A DNA stretch of 64,000 nt from Actinomycetospora endophytica (GTDB taxonomy: Bacteria; Actinomycetota; Actinomycetes; Mycobacteriales; Pseudonocardiaceae). Below are positions 29,025 through 36,717 of the stretch, one piece after another; within the stretch, counting starts at the first letter, position 1, and each line of letters starts with the position of its first letter. Made by a program: the position numbers and the translations under genes. A model generated the notes under the pieces. The model did no database searches, was not told the DNA's origin, and saw only the letters and a program-made list of their open reading frames with translations. The stretch spans positions 1,240,001 through 1,304,000 of the forward strand of contig NZ_JAJNDB010000001.1 of assembly GCF_021026375.1 (NCBI RefSeq), given 5' to 3'.

Positions 29025-29456
29025 ATGAGCGACGAGCCCGCCCCCGACGACGAGCCCGCCCCCGACGACGAGCCCCCGGCCGACGTCGCCGAGCTCGCCG
29101 GCCGGGTCTTCGAGATGGCCCGTACCGGCGACGCCGCGAGCCTGGCGACCTACGTCGACGCCGGCGTCCCGGTGAACCTCACGAACGACTCCGGGGACAC
29201 GCTGGTCATGCTCGCGGCGTACCACGGTCACGCCGAGGCGGTCCGGGCGCTCGTCGCGCGGGGTGCGGACGTCAACCGGCTCAACGACCGCGGCCAGTCC
29301 CCGGTCGCCGGCGCGGTGTTCAAGGGTGAGGACGACGTGGTGCGTGCGCTCGTGGACGGCGGCGCCGACCCGGTGGCCGGTCACCCGACGGCCGTCGACA
29401 CCGCCCGGATGTTCGGGCGCGAGGACCTCCTGACGGTGCTCTCGCCACCGATGTGA
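29025..29456 (+). CDS. ankyrin-repeat protein
   Basis: A 143-residue soluble protein. The N-terminus contains a repeated EPAPDD hexapeptide encoded by an 18-base tandem DNA repeat. About three ankyrin repeats follow from residue 30 (SGDTLVMLAAYHGHAEAVRALVARGADVNRL is the clearest, seen as GDTLVMLAAYHGH then ALVARGADVN). Such small ankyrin proteins bind partner proteins; the partner is unknown. TATCCT at 29012-29017 lies seven bases before ATG 29025 (leaderless pattern). It lies 77 bases upstream of the AhpD-like selenoprotein. Confidence 0.85.
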   Translation: MSDEPAPDDEPAPDDEPPADVAELAGRVFEMARTGDAASLATYVDAGVPVNLTNDSGDTLVMLAAYHGHAEAVRALVARGADVNRLNDRGQSPVAGAVFKGEDDVVRALVDGGADPVAGHPTAVDTARMFGREDLLTVLSPPM

Positions 29457-29533: not shown

Positions 29534-30127
29534 GTGGCCCGCGTACCGCTCCCGAACCCCGACGACCCCGGGCTCGACCCGCACGCCAGGGCCCTGCTGG
29601 AGTCGGTGGCCGACGCCCAGCCGGAGGTGGGCGTGCTCAACGTCCACCGCGCCCTGGCCAACCACCCGACGGCGATGGAGCAGCTCTTCACGTTCCTGGA
29701 GACCGTGTACTTCCAGAACTCGCTGCCGACCACGCGTCAGCGGGAGCTGCCGTACCTGACCAGTGCGGTCGCCAACAACTGCTTCTATTGAACGCCGACC
29801 CACGTGGTGCTCGGTCGAGCATCGGGGTTGACCGACGAGGAGATGTCGCACCTCCTCGACGACCCGCTCCCGGAGGGCATGTTCTCGCCCGCCGAGGCAG
29901 CGATCATCGTGTTCGCGCGGACATCCACCTGGATGCAGCCGATCACCGATGAGATCTACGCGAACCTGCAGGAGCACTTCGACACGAAGCAGATCATGGA
30001 GATCTCCTTCACCGTGGGACTGGATCAGCTGATCAGCCGGTTCCACGCCACCGTGCGGACGGATCTCGACGGCGTGACCGCCGAGGCGACGAACGCCTGC
30101 GCGGTGCGGATCCCGGACGCACCCTGA
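29534..30127 (+). CDS. AhpD-like/carboxymuconolactone-decarboxylase-family protein, probable selenoprotein (TGA = Sec86)
   Basis: Read through one in-frame TGA (29789-29791), this is a 197-residue CMD/AhpD protein. AhpD proteins have the site E-x11-C-x2-C-x3-H, used for thiol-disulfide and peroxide chemistry. Here Glu71, Cys83, TGA at 86 and His90 fit it exactly, with TGA at the second, attacking cysteine. The frame continues after TGA with good family sequence (TPTHVVLGRASGLTDEEM) and no other defect to the stop at 30127. Eight base pairs with a GGTC loop follow 21 bases after the TGA, as in a bacterial SECIS. GTG 29534 has GGAAGG upstream. The alternative is a recent nonsense mutation. No selA, selB, selC or selD gene is present in this window, so the call depends on the rest of the genome. 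Confidence 0.75.
29805..29824 (+). promoter_or_regulatory. SECIS-like hairpin for selenocysteine insertion
   Basis: Bases 29805-29812 pair with 29817-29824 (eight pairs, two of them G-T), and the loop 29813-29816 is GGTC. The loop begins 21 bases after the TGA. In E. coli fdhF the SelB-binding hairpin also has a GGUC loop, about 18 bases after UGA, and bacterial SECIS loops start with G at about 16-37 bases. The hairpin lies inside the coding frame, as in all bacterial SECIS elements. Confidence 0.7.
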
Positions 30128-30253: not shown

Positions 30254-31282
30254 ATGGGCATCCCGATCTCGGTTCTCGATCTCTCGCCGATCCCCTCCGG
30301 CACGCCCGCCTCGCAGGCCCTGCACGACACCGTCGAGCTCGCCCGCACCGCCGAGGCGGCCGGTTACCGGCGGTACTGGCTCGCCGAGCACCACAACATC
30401 GCGAGCGTCACGAGCTCGAGCCCCGAGGTGATGATCTCGGCGGTGGCGTCCGCGACGAGCACCATCCGGGTCGGCTCCGGCGGGATCATGCTGCCCAACC
30501 ACAGCCCGCTGAAGGTCGCCGAAACCTTCCGAGCGCTGAACGGCCTCTTCGCGGACCGCATCGACCTCGGGCTCGGCCGAGCGCCGGGGACCGACCCGCG
30601 CACCGCGATCGCGCTGCGCCGCTCCCACCAGGCGTTGACCGCGGACGACTTCCCCGACCAGTTCGCCGAGCTGCGCGGCTACGTCGACGGCTTCGACCCC
30701 GAGCACCCGTTCCGCGGGATCGTGGCGCTTCCCGACGACGTCCCGCTGCCGCCGGTGTGGATCCTCGGGTCCAGCTACTACGGCGCCCAGGCGGCCGCGG
30801 CGTTCGGGACCGGATTCGCCTACGCCGGGCACTTCGGCGGCGCGGACGCCGGCGAGGCCACGCGGATCTACCGCGAGGGCTTCCGCCCGAGCGAGGGCTC
30901 CGGCGCGCAGGAGCCGCACGTCATCCTCGGCGCGGCCGCGATCGCCCACCCCGACGCCGAGCGCGCCCAGCAGCTCGGCCGCGCGAACGCGCTGTCGATG
31001 GCGCGCCTGCGCACCGGCACCCCGGGCCCGCTGCCCAGCCCCGAGGAGGCCGCCGCGCACGACTGGAGCGCCGCCGAGGAGCGCGTCGCGCAGGGCATGG
31101 CGAGCAAGGTGTCGGTGGGCACGCCGGAGGAGGTCGCCGAGGACCTGATGCGCAAGGCCCGCGAGGCCGACGCCGACGAACTGATGATCACGACGGCGAT
31201 CCACGACGGTGCCGAGCGCCGGCAGTCGCTGCAGCTGGTCGCGGAGGCCCTGGGTGCCTTGCGGCTCGTGAGCACAAATTGA
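30254..31282 (+). CDS. luciferase-like (LLM class) flavin-dependent oxidoreductase, MsnO8 family
   Basis: A 342-residue FMN/F420-type monooxygenase-like barrel. The N-terminal [12 protein letters not shown] and [12 protein letters not shown] are the typical MsnO8 signature. [19 protein letters not shown] and [11 protein letters not shown] follow. ATG 30254 fits the usual N-terminus. The stop TGA (31280-31282) lies inside the core of palindromic element copy 2, so the last nine residues (GALRLVSTN) are encoded by that element and are not part of the family fold. Substrate unknown. Confidence 0.85.
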
Positions 31283-34270: not shown

Positions 34271-34536
34271 CCTCGCGCCACCTCTCGTCAGGCCGTCCCG
34301 CTCCACGGCTGCTGAGTCGCTCCGCAACCGTCCGGCGGAGGTTAACCGCCGCCCCACCTCAGGAGTGTGATCCACGCCTCGTTCTTCCAGGCTGAACGAT
34401 CGAGATGACGCGCGCCGCACGACCTGGACGTTCAGCGCCAGAACGAGACCCACGTCACTCCTGTTCCGGTGCGCGTGGCCCGGCTCGCACCCCGGTACGC
34501 CGTGCACACGGTGGCTCGCCCAGCTGTAGCGCCCGT

Positions 34537-34552
34537 GTCATCTCCCGGAAAC
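34537..34552 (+). promoter_or_regulatory. weak candidate GlnR half-box in the 305-base gap between pntA and nasC
   Basis: GTCAT, six bases, GAAAC resembles one half of the actinobacterial GlnR site (GTNAC-n6-GAAAC), the nitrogen regulator known to switch on nas and nir genes. It lies 24 bases before the nasC start. Only one half-site is convincing. The rest of 34271-34575 shows no gene. Confidence 0.3.
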
Positions 34553-34575
34553 GCCTCGCACGGAACGTGGGCCCC

Positions 34576-36717
34576 GTGTCACTCCCCCTCGTCGGCGCGT
34601 CGACCGGTCCGGTCGCGACGCACTGCCCGTACTGCTCGCTGCAGTGCGGCATGACGTTGACGGCACGTCCCGAGACGGCGGGCGGCGGCTTCACGGTCGA
34701 GGGCGCGAACTTCCCGACGAACCGCGGCGGGCTCTGCGAGAAGGGGCTCAGCTCGGCGGAGCTGCTCGCGCACCCCGACCGCCTCACGACGCCCCTGGTG
34801 CGGGACGCGCGGAACGAACCCTTCCGCGAGGCGACGTGGGACGAGGCCCTCGACCGGGTCGTCACGGGCTTCACGGTCGCCCAGGAGCGGTTCGGGGCGG
34901 ACGCCGCGGGCCTGTTCGGCGGCGGCGGCCTGACCAACGAGAAGGCCTACCAGGCGGGGAAGTTCGTCCGGGTCGCGCTGCGCAGCGCCTCGGTCGACTA
35001 CAACGGGCGCTTCTGCATGTCGAGCGCCGCGGCCGCGTCGAACAAGGCCTTCGGGATCGACCGCGGGATGCCGTTCCCGCTCGCCGACATCGCGCGCGCC
35101 GACACCGTCATGCTCGTCGGCTCCAACCCGGCGGACACCATGCCGCCGGCGATGCGCTGGTTCGCCGCCGGCCGGGAGCGCGGCGCGCAGCACCTCGTCG
35201 TGGACCCCCGCTACACCGCGACCGCCGCCGCGTCCGACGTCCACCTCCAGCCGGTGCCCGGCACGGACCTGGCGCTGGCCAACGGGCTCCTCCACCTGGC
35301 GATCAAGCACCGGCTGGTCGACACCACCTACGTCGCGGACCGGACCACCGGGTGGGACGCGGTGCGCCGGGCGGCGCGGCAGTACTGGCCGGACCGTGTG
35401 GAGCGGATCACCGGGGTGCCGGTGCGGGTCATGGAGCGCGCGGTGCGGATGCTCGCCGAGTCCCGCGCGACGATGATCCTCTCCGCGCGGGGCGCCGAGC
35501 AGCACGCGAAGGGCTCCGACACCGCGCTGGCCTGGATCAACCTGGCGCTGGCCCTCGGGCTCCCCGGCCGGCCGTACTCGGGCTGGGCGACGGTGACCGG
35601 GCAGGGCAACGGGCAGGGCGGGCGCGAGCACGGCCAGAAGGCCGACCAGCTGCCCGGCTACCGGATGCTCGCCGACCCGGAGGCGCGCGCCCACGTCGCG
35701 GGCGTCTGGGGCATCGACCCCGACGAGCTCCCGAAGCCCGGCGCCTCGGCCTACGAGATGCTCGACCGGCTCGGCACCGACGGCGGCGTCCGGGCGCTGC
35801 TGATCATGGCCTCGAACGTCGCGGTCAGCGCGCCGCGGGCCGACCACGTGCGTGAGCGGCTCGCCGAGACCGACTTCCTCGCCGTCTCCGACCTCTTCCT
35901 GTCCGAGACCGCGGAGCTCGCCGACGTCGTCCTGCCCTGCGCCCAGTGGGCCGAGGAGGAGGGCACGATGACCAACCTCGAGGGCCGGGTGCTGCGCCGC
36001 AGGCGCGCCGCGCGGGCTCCCGACGGCGTCCGCTCCGACCTGTCCGTCCTCGCCGACCTGGCCGCTCGCCTCGGCCGCGGGCAGTTCTTCTCCGACGACC
36101 CCGAGACCGTCTTCGACGAACTGCGCCGCGCCTCGTCGGGCGGGAAGGCGGACTACGCGGGCATCTCCTACGCCCGCATCGAGGCCGAGCGCGGCGTGTT
36201 CTGGCCCTGCCCCGACGAGGCCCACGCGGGCACGCCCCGCCTGTTCCGGGAGCGGTTCGCGACGCCGGACGGCCGCGCGCGGTTCCACGTCGTGCACCAC
36301 CGGGCGGCCGCCGAGGAGCCCGACGCCGAGTACCCGTACCGGCTGACCACCGGCCGGTCCCGCGCGCACTACCAGTCCGGCACGCAGACCCGTCGCACGA
36401 AGGCGCTGCTCGACGCCGAGCCGGAGCCCGTCGTCGACATCCATCCCGACCTCGCCGCGCGGCTCGGGATCGCCGACGGAGCGGACGTGGTGCTGCGCAG
36501 CCGCCGCGGGACGGCGCGGTTGCGCGCGCGGTTCGCCTCGACCATCCGGCCCGACACCGTGTTCGCGCCCTTCCACTGGTCGGGCGACCAGACGGTCAAC
36601 GCCCTGACCAACCCGGCGCTCGACCCGGCGTCGCGCATGCCCGAGTTCAAGATCTGCGCGGTGTCCGTCGAGGCCGCGCCTGCCCACCACCCCGCCGGAG
36701 AGGACGCCTCCCCATGA
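34576..36717 (+). CDS. nasC: assimilatory nitrate reductase catalytic subunit (molybdopterin oxidoreductase)
   Basis: A 713-residue cytoplasmic bis-MGD enzyme that reduces nitrate to nitrite. The N-terminal 4Fe-4S motif is CPYCSLQC followed by GGLCEKG. NGRFCMSSAAAASNKAFG and the VGSNPADTMPP region match NasA/NarB. The C-terminal dinucleotide-binding domain carries LTTGRSRAHYQSGTQTRR. GTG 34576 starts a short normal leader; the longer upstream frame is Arg/Pro-rich and not coding. The stop overlaps the next ATG. It leads the nas-nir operon. Confidence 0.92.
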   Translation: MSLPLVGASTGPVATHCPYCSLQCGMTLTARPETAGGGFTVEGANFPTNRGGLCEKGLSSAELLAHPDRLTTPLVRDARNEPFREATWDEALDRVVTGFTVAQERFGADAAGLFGGGGLTNEKAYQAGKFVRVALRSASVDYNGRFCMSSAAAASNKAFGIDRGMPFPLADIARADTVMLVGSNPADTMPPAMRWFAAGRERGAQHLVVDPRYTATAAASDVHLQPVPGTDLALANGLLHLAIKHRLVDTTYVADRTTGWDAVRRAARQYWPDRVERITGVPVRVMERAVRMLAESRATMILSARGAEQHAKGSDTALAWINLALALGLPGRPYSGWATVTGQGNGQGGREHGQKADQLPGYRMLADPEARAHVAGVWGIDPDELPKPGASAYEMLDRLGTDGGVRALLIMASNVAVSAPRADHVRERLAETDFLAVSDLFLSETAELADVVLPCAQWAEEEGTMTNLEGRVLRRRRAARAPDGVRSDLSVLADLAARLGRGQFFSDDPETVFDELRRASSGGKADYAGISYARIEAERGVFWPCPDEAHAGTPRLFRERFATPDGRARFHVVHHRAAAEEPDAEYPYRLTTGRSRAHYQSGTQTRRTKALLDAEPEPVVDIHPDLAARLGIADGADVVLRSRRGTARLRARFASTIRPDTVFAPFHWSGDQTVNALTNPALDPASRMPEFKICAVSVEAAPAHHPAGEDASP

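Follow-up and report, generated by a model that had tools for sequence, protein, structure and literature searches.

An AhpD-like gene of Actinomycetospora endophytica probably encodes a selenoprotein with a C-x2-U redox motif

Results

Overall organisation of the locus

The window analysed here is a stretch of 64,000 nucleotides from the genome of Actinomycetospora endophytica, which comprises 6.98 Mb in 17 contigs. Inspection of the window revealed a gene of the AhpD/CMD superfamily that is interrupted by one in-frame TGA and flanked by an ankyrin-repeat protein gene and a luciferase-like monooxygenase gene. The features are listed below, with the two neighbours given for context only.

29025..29456, plus strand: ankyrin-repeat protein, upstream neighbour (Pfam Ank_2, 1.6e-12)
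29534..30127, plus strand: predicted AhpD/CMD superfamily selenoprotein gene, GTG start, 197 residues when Sec86 is counted, coordinates including the terminal TGA (frame, Pfam CMD, 16 relatives fully read)
29744..29746, plus strand: codon for Glu71, a residue of the AhpD-type proton relay, with Glu in all 11 rows of alignment A1 and all 16 Sec rows
29780..29788, plus strand: Cys83-Phe84-Tyr85 codons (TGC TTC TAT) directly 5' of the Sec codon, Cys83 and Tyr85 invariant across the Sec rows
29789..29791, plus strand: in-frame TGA, putative selenocysteine 86 codon (frame reading; TGA in 17 of 17 close relatives including the window gene)
29801..29803, plus strand: His90 codon of the proton relay, invariant across the Sec rows
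29805..29824, plus strand: SECIS-like hairpin, stem 29805-29812/29817-29824, loop GGTC at 29813-29816 (conservation, slide control)
30254..31282, plus strand: luciferase-like monooxygenase, downstream neighbour (Pfam Bac_luciferase, 4.9e-40)

Translation of the frame meets one internal stop, the TGA of codon 86, beyond which 111 more codons lead to the terminal TGA at 30125-30127. An earlier note on this DNA, which proposed an AhpD-like selenoprotein from the letters of the window, gave a frame, coordinates and codon numbers that all hold on re-translation. Its expectation that an automatic gene caller would split the gene agrees with a mechanical listing of open reading frames, in which the gene appears as two pieces of 85 and 107 amino acids.

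Active-site residues and family membership

The Pfam CMD domain spans the TGA, covering residues 45-122 of the read-through protein with a score of 36.5 bits against a gathering score of 23. Codon 86 sits exactly where the motif E-x11-C-x2-C-x3-H has its second cysteine, with Glu71, Cys83 and His90 at the other positions. Frame and domain match together confirm that reading the TGA as selenocysteine would give a C-x2-U motif, as had been proposed. We take the second cysteine of the AhpD motif, position 86 here, to be the attacking cysteine. The motif is common to the window protein, Mycobacterium tuberculosis AhpD and Pseudomonas aeruginosa PA0269, and Glu71, Cys83, Tyr85, position 86 and His90 correspond to the five proton-relay residues reported for AhpD and PA0269 (PMC3141380), with Sec replacing the second Cys. 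The accessible text of that study calls both AhpD cysteines catalytic and places a tyrosine between the cysteines of PA0269, as in the window protein. In addition, a match to 2o4d covers residues 71-170 of the window protein at 1e-5. The window protein differs from AhpD and PA0269 in having Sec for the second Cys and in the absence of ahpC among the immediate neighbours of its gene, which are the ankyrin protein and the luciferase-like monooxygenase.

AhpD-like CxxU selenoproteins have been published in the available texts of three studies (PMC2398784, PMC9312934, PMC13188914) as AhpD-like 1 (COG2128/TIGR01926) and AhpD-like 2 (PF02627), bearing out the earlier statement that such proteins were already described in genome surveys (PMC2398784, PMC13188914). 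One survey counts 299 sequences in one of its two families and 70 in the other (PMC2398784), and another distinguishes TIGR01926, NF041238, NF041047 and PF02627 forms (PMC13188914). Similar to these proteins, the window protein belongs to the CMD/AhpD family by profile, has a predicted Sec as the second redox residue of CxxU, and its gene carries a bSECIS-like hairpin just 3' of the UGA. For its two families the published survey text gives 902 and 207 homologues with Cys, whereas no Cys form above 100 bits was found in the close lineage of the window gene. The window protein scores 41 bits with the TIGR01926 peroxidase-related enzyme profile, whose cut-off is 81.8. NF041238 (AhpD_rel_CFYUT, alkylhydroperoxidase-related (seleno)protein) scores 33 bits against 175 over 75 residues of the 357-position model, and the window protein reads exactly C-F-Y-U-T, the string in the model name. 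NF041047 also stays below its cut-off. The name AhpD-like thus stands at the superfamily level given by Pfam CMD and not at the level of the NCBIfam models. Because the scores lie under the TIGR01926, NF041238 and NF041047 cut-offs, we file the window protein as a new lineage of the published kind. In the openly accessible literature on selenoproteins of Actinomycetospora and Pseudonocardia, we recognised no published description of this lineage.

Conservation of the in-frame TGA

Relatives were searched in 18 genomes of the genus, 390 of the family and 396 sampled evenly across the phylum, the source genome included. A match above 100 bits was taken as a close relative, and at most eight candidates per genome were scored in the family and phylum searches. 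The only named relatives that a protein scan returned are four Actinomycetospora records, from a genus that NCBI assigns to Pseudonocardiaceae. Within the genus, the gene is present in 6 of 18 genomes (own included) with 77-99% identity and one TGA each. Among the matches scored, the family yielded 12 copies in 11 of 390 genomes, namely the six of the genus and five of the sister genus g30, perhaps Pseudonocardia, and the next match falls to 31% identity and 62.1 bits. One g30 genome (G293) holds two copies (L129 and L130), both with the TGA and the same hairpin. The phylum sample added 5 copies above 100 bits in four genomes, all of family f19, again among the matches scored.

The TGA stands at the same place in all 17 genes above 100 bits among the matches scored (12 from the family and 5 from the phylum sample, window gene included); in G454 a second TGA was counted, which is the terminal stop. 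These genes form three groups that are 53-99% identical or reached only by profile, and good family sequence continues 3' of the TGA. No Cys form above 100 bits was found among the matches scored in the 390 family and 396 phylum-sample genomes. The earlier note had named TGC in related strains, together with random changes in the hairpin, as an outcome that would speak against its reading; this pattern is absent, both TGA (17/17) and hairpin being kept.

A tree was built from 52 proteins, comprising 16 Sec genes, two other TGA genes and 34 homologues taken from the 54 no-stop or weaker loci (L033-L050, L065 and L069 left out). The 16 Sec genes form one clade with a support of 99/99 and carry E-C-Y-U-H in 16 of 16 cases. 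The 34 no-stop homologues have Cys (17), Glu (16) or Val (1) at position 86.

Two further observations were made on these genes. A second copy in G465 (L151, C1:2705000-2706600) retains TGA and hairpin with its N-terminal half out of frame, and is either a decaying copy or a sequence error. The Tyr85 codon (29786-29788) is TAT in 12 of 12 family-level genes, whereas none of 40 Tyr codons in four gene stretches of the window is TAT. The four f19 genes that were fully read have TAC. The TAT before the TGA perhaps reflects stop-codon context.

The SECIS-like hairpin

The hairpin 3' of the TGA consists of 8 pairs, two of them G-U, with an MFE of -12.9 kcal/mol. The 8-bp stem with a GGTC loop claimed earlier is thereby confirmed, and the distance of 21 bases after the TGA holds for the start of the loop but not of the stem, which begins after 13 nt. 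The bSECIS layout in the accessible text of PMC13188914 has a loop of 3-9 nt with G in the first two loop positions, an upper stem of 4-16 bp, a UGA-to-loop distance of 16-37 nt and an MFE of at most -7.5. The hairpin of the window gene fits all these values (loop 4, stem 8, GG, 21 nt, -12.9 kcal/mol); the hairpin of G003, with an MFE of -7.4, lies just outside the -7.5 limit.

Taken alone, the single hairpin is weak evidence and ordinary for this DNA. A stem as long occurs in 254 of 5000 synonymous recodings and an MFE as low in 1016 of 5000, and four other gene stretches of the window have stems of at least 8 pairs at 30 of their 1875 codon positions. Since similar stems are too frequent in recodings and other window genes, hairpin strength was rejected as sole proof. 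The Rfam scan of the 64-kb window returned one tRNA-Gly only and no SECIS entry.

Among relatives, the hairpin is clearly conserved and partly covarying. In the 16 genes fully read it starts 13 nt after the TGA, and the loop begins GGTC. Counted by script across these genes, standard pairs fill 125 of 128 cells, whereas shifting one arm by 1 to 4 positions leaves 36-63; the loop is one base longer in 8 of the 16, and the register was set by group by the analyst. The non-pairing cells are A-C in G003 and T-C in each G293 copy. Two-sided changes occur at 4 of 8 pairs, within a scope of seven hairpin haplotypes in which full pairing survives 13 of 42 arm swaps. In addition, the codons GGT-CGA-GCA (94-96) are identical in 8 of 8 close genes despite their rarity in four gene stretches of the window (GGT 4/192 Gly, CGA 2/156 Arg and GCA 4/254 Ala codons), so that codon choice supports the hairpin. 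Block-wide synonymous conservation over codons 87-100 was considered and set aside, as it is not clearly raised (7/13 vs 37/90) and only the rare-codon identity speaks. The earlier argument from a single hairpin therefore stands as to its existence but not as to its weight, and the cross-genome comparison carries the case.

Selenocysteine machinery

The genome encodes a tRNA-Sec (70.3 bits against a cut-off of 47, anticodon tca); the other RF01852 matches are weaker and below the cut-off. SelA (407.8 bits, cut-off 267.9) and SelB (273.3 bits, cut-off 242.25) lie on the tRNA-Sec contig, and SelD (381.2 bits, cut-off 125) on another contig. All four components are thus present above curated cut-offs, among them SelA, SelB and tRNA-Sec, whose absence the earlier note had named as refuting the selenoprotein reading. 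tRNA-Sec exceeds the cut-off in 15 of 15 carrier genomes (11 at family level and four f19), and also in 74 of 80 genomes of both genera, including all 18 of the window's genus. As tRNA-Sec is so common, its co-occurrence with the gene is required but weakly telling.

Directly 3' of the tRNA-Sec lies a formate dehydrogenase alpha gene with one in-frame TGA (923 bits joint against 814.2) and a hairpin with a GGTCT loop 18 nt after its TGA. This molybdopterin enzyme is unrelated to the window protein, and only the recoding signal, an in-frame TGA with a GGTC-loop hairpin, is common to both genes. A second formate dehydrogenase piece (L146, G000:C10:705120-705560; 70.9 bits, below the cut-off) also has one in-frame TGA and GGTC in its hairpin. 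The three TGA-bearing genes examined in this genome therefore share GGTC.

Genomic context

In all six genus carriers the luciferase-like monooxygenase gene lies 67-129 bases 3' of the selenoprotein gene, and in five of them the ankyrin gene lies 5' of it. The monooxygenase gene is found in 17 of 18 genus genomes, 11 of which have no selenoprotein gene. In G008 (L114) about 70 bases separate the ankyrin and monooxygenase genes, and the selenoprotein gene is absent from this interval, an apparent empty site that fits the gain or loss of a single gene.

Four g30 genomes (L131 in G265, L132 in G291, L133 in G314 and L134 in G283) have the selenoprotein gene close behind tRNA-Sec and in the same orientation, its start lying 41 bases away in three of them and 49 in the fourth, whereas the tRNA-Sec of the window's genome is followed by the Sec formate dehydrogenase gene. 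Both copies of G293 are far from tRNA-Sec. The gene 3' of the selenoprotein gene in G265 was considered as a sel gene and rejected, being an amidase. Within the window, a molybdopterin oxidoreductase gene without internal stop (34405-36717, plus strand; 118.8 bits against the formate dehydrogenase cut-off of 814.2) is located five kilobases from the selenoprotein gene.

Discussion

We propose, with a probability of about 94%, that the gene encodes a full-length 197-residue AhpD/CMD selenoprotein made by SelB-directed Sec insertion at codon 86, as judged from the sequence comparisons. The Sec reading rests on one frame whose conservation extends to either side of the TGA, the TGA kept in all close relatives found, the conserved and partly covarying hairpin and the complete Sec machinery. 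The AhpD-like selenoprotein proposed earlier is thus supported, and neither finding named against it occurred. In the proposed mechanism, SelB carrying Sec-tRNA would bind the hairpin just 3' of the UGA, and insertion of selenocysteine at codon 86 in the cell would create the C-x2-U redox pair. Sec86 would act as the nucleophile on a peroxide or disulfide with Cys83 as the resolving residue, while Glu71, Tyr85 and His90 may relay protons. The protein would be re-reduced by a cellular thiol or a thioredoxin-type donor.

The relay residues, together with the weak reduction of H2O2 by PA0269 in the accessible text of PMC3141380, point to peroxidase or thiol-redox chemistry, and we somewhat favour reduction of peroxides or hydroperoxides as the function. 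There is nevertheless a considerable chance that the selenoprotein is no peroxidase at all, and serves instead as a thiol-disulfide carrier or as an enzyme linked to the luciferase-like monooxygenase encoded beside it. The weakness of the related PA0269 activity in that text (PMC3141380), a family membership that holds at superfamily level only (TIGR01926, 41 bits vs 81.8) and the monooxygenase gene 3' of the gene in 6 of 6 genus carriers would all fit such a role, but all five AhpD proton-relay positions are present and invariant. A tie to the monooxygenase in particular is opposed by the 11 of 17 monooxygenase genomes that do without the selenoprotein gene, and by the four g30 genomes in which it is found behind tRNA-Sec instead.

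Readthrough of the TGA by near-cognate suppression, or its decoding as another residue without SelB-directed Sec insertion, is very improbable. The TAT codon before the TGA (12/12 family-level genes vs 0/40 window Tyr codons) might hint at it, but the four f19 genes have TAC, and the TGA takes the place of a redox Cys, the pattern of known selenoproteins. Moreover, the hairpin fits the bacterial SECIS layout in the text of PMC13188914, and tRNA-Sec accompanies the gene in 15 of 15 carrier genomes. That the TGA is a nonsense mutation, a sequencing error or the mark of a decaying pseudogene, ending the protein and leaving two dead pieces, is scarcely credible given that all 17 genes of the three groups share this TGA, with good family sequence 3' of it, and that the genome has the Sec machinery, even though the frame falls into two ORFs (85 and 107 aa), the gene is dispensable as judged from its absence in 12 of 18 genus genomes, and one of the two G465 copies looks damaged in its N-terminal half.

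If the Sec reading is correct, a lineage with no Cys form found makes the question of why some enzymes do not revert to cysteine testable with Sec and Cys versions. A named strain with published proteome work, A. chiangmaiensis DSM 45062, carries the selenoprotein gene with its TGA (L019). Its formate oxidation requires selenite, and SelA, SelB and SelD were seen at low abundance in its proteome, according to the accessible text of PMC7176365. The Sec proteins which that text reports are formate dehydrogenases, and the word carboxymuconolactone is absent from its main text. The present gene likely adds a redox selenoprotein to A. chiangmaiensis beside those formate dehydrogenases. In addition, early TGA-terminated genes in these genera merit re-reading.

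The position of the gene in four g30 genomes, 41-49 bases behind a tRNA-Sec of the same orientation, suggests that the tRNA and the selenoprotein mRNA may be one transcript. As a tentative and rather speculative extension, this could be an actinobacterial AhpD-type lineage in which Sec is locked in, which is gained and lost as a single gene and is tied to Sec supply, possibly as a module of Sec-dependent peroxide defence or Sec status co-transcribed with tRNA-Sec.

Two other CMD-type genes also bear a TGA. One lies in tandem 5' of the main gene in G562 (L093:912-1412, plus strand), with the motif A-E-Y-U, which lacks the partner Cys, and an 8-pair hairpin of its own whose loop is GGCG. The other is a distant gene of G395 (L101:1501-2016, minus strand) in which C-P-W precedes the TGA and a 6-pair hairpin has the loop GGTC; it falls outside the Sec clade and is perhaps a separate selenoprotein origin.
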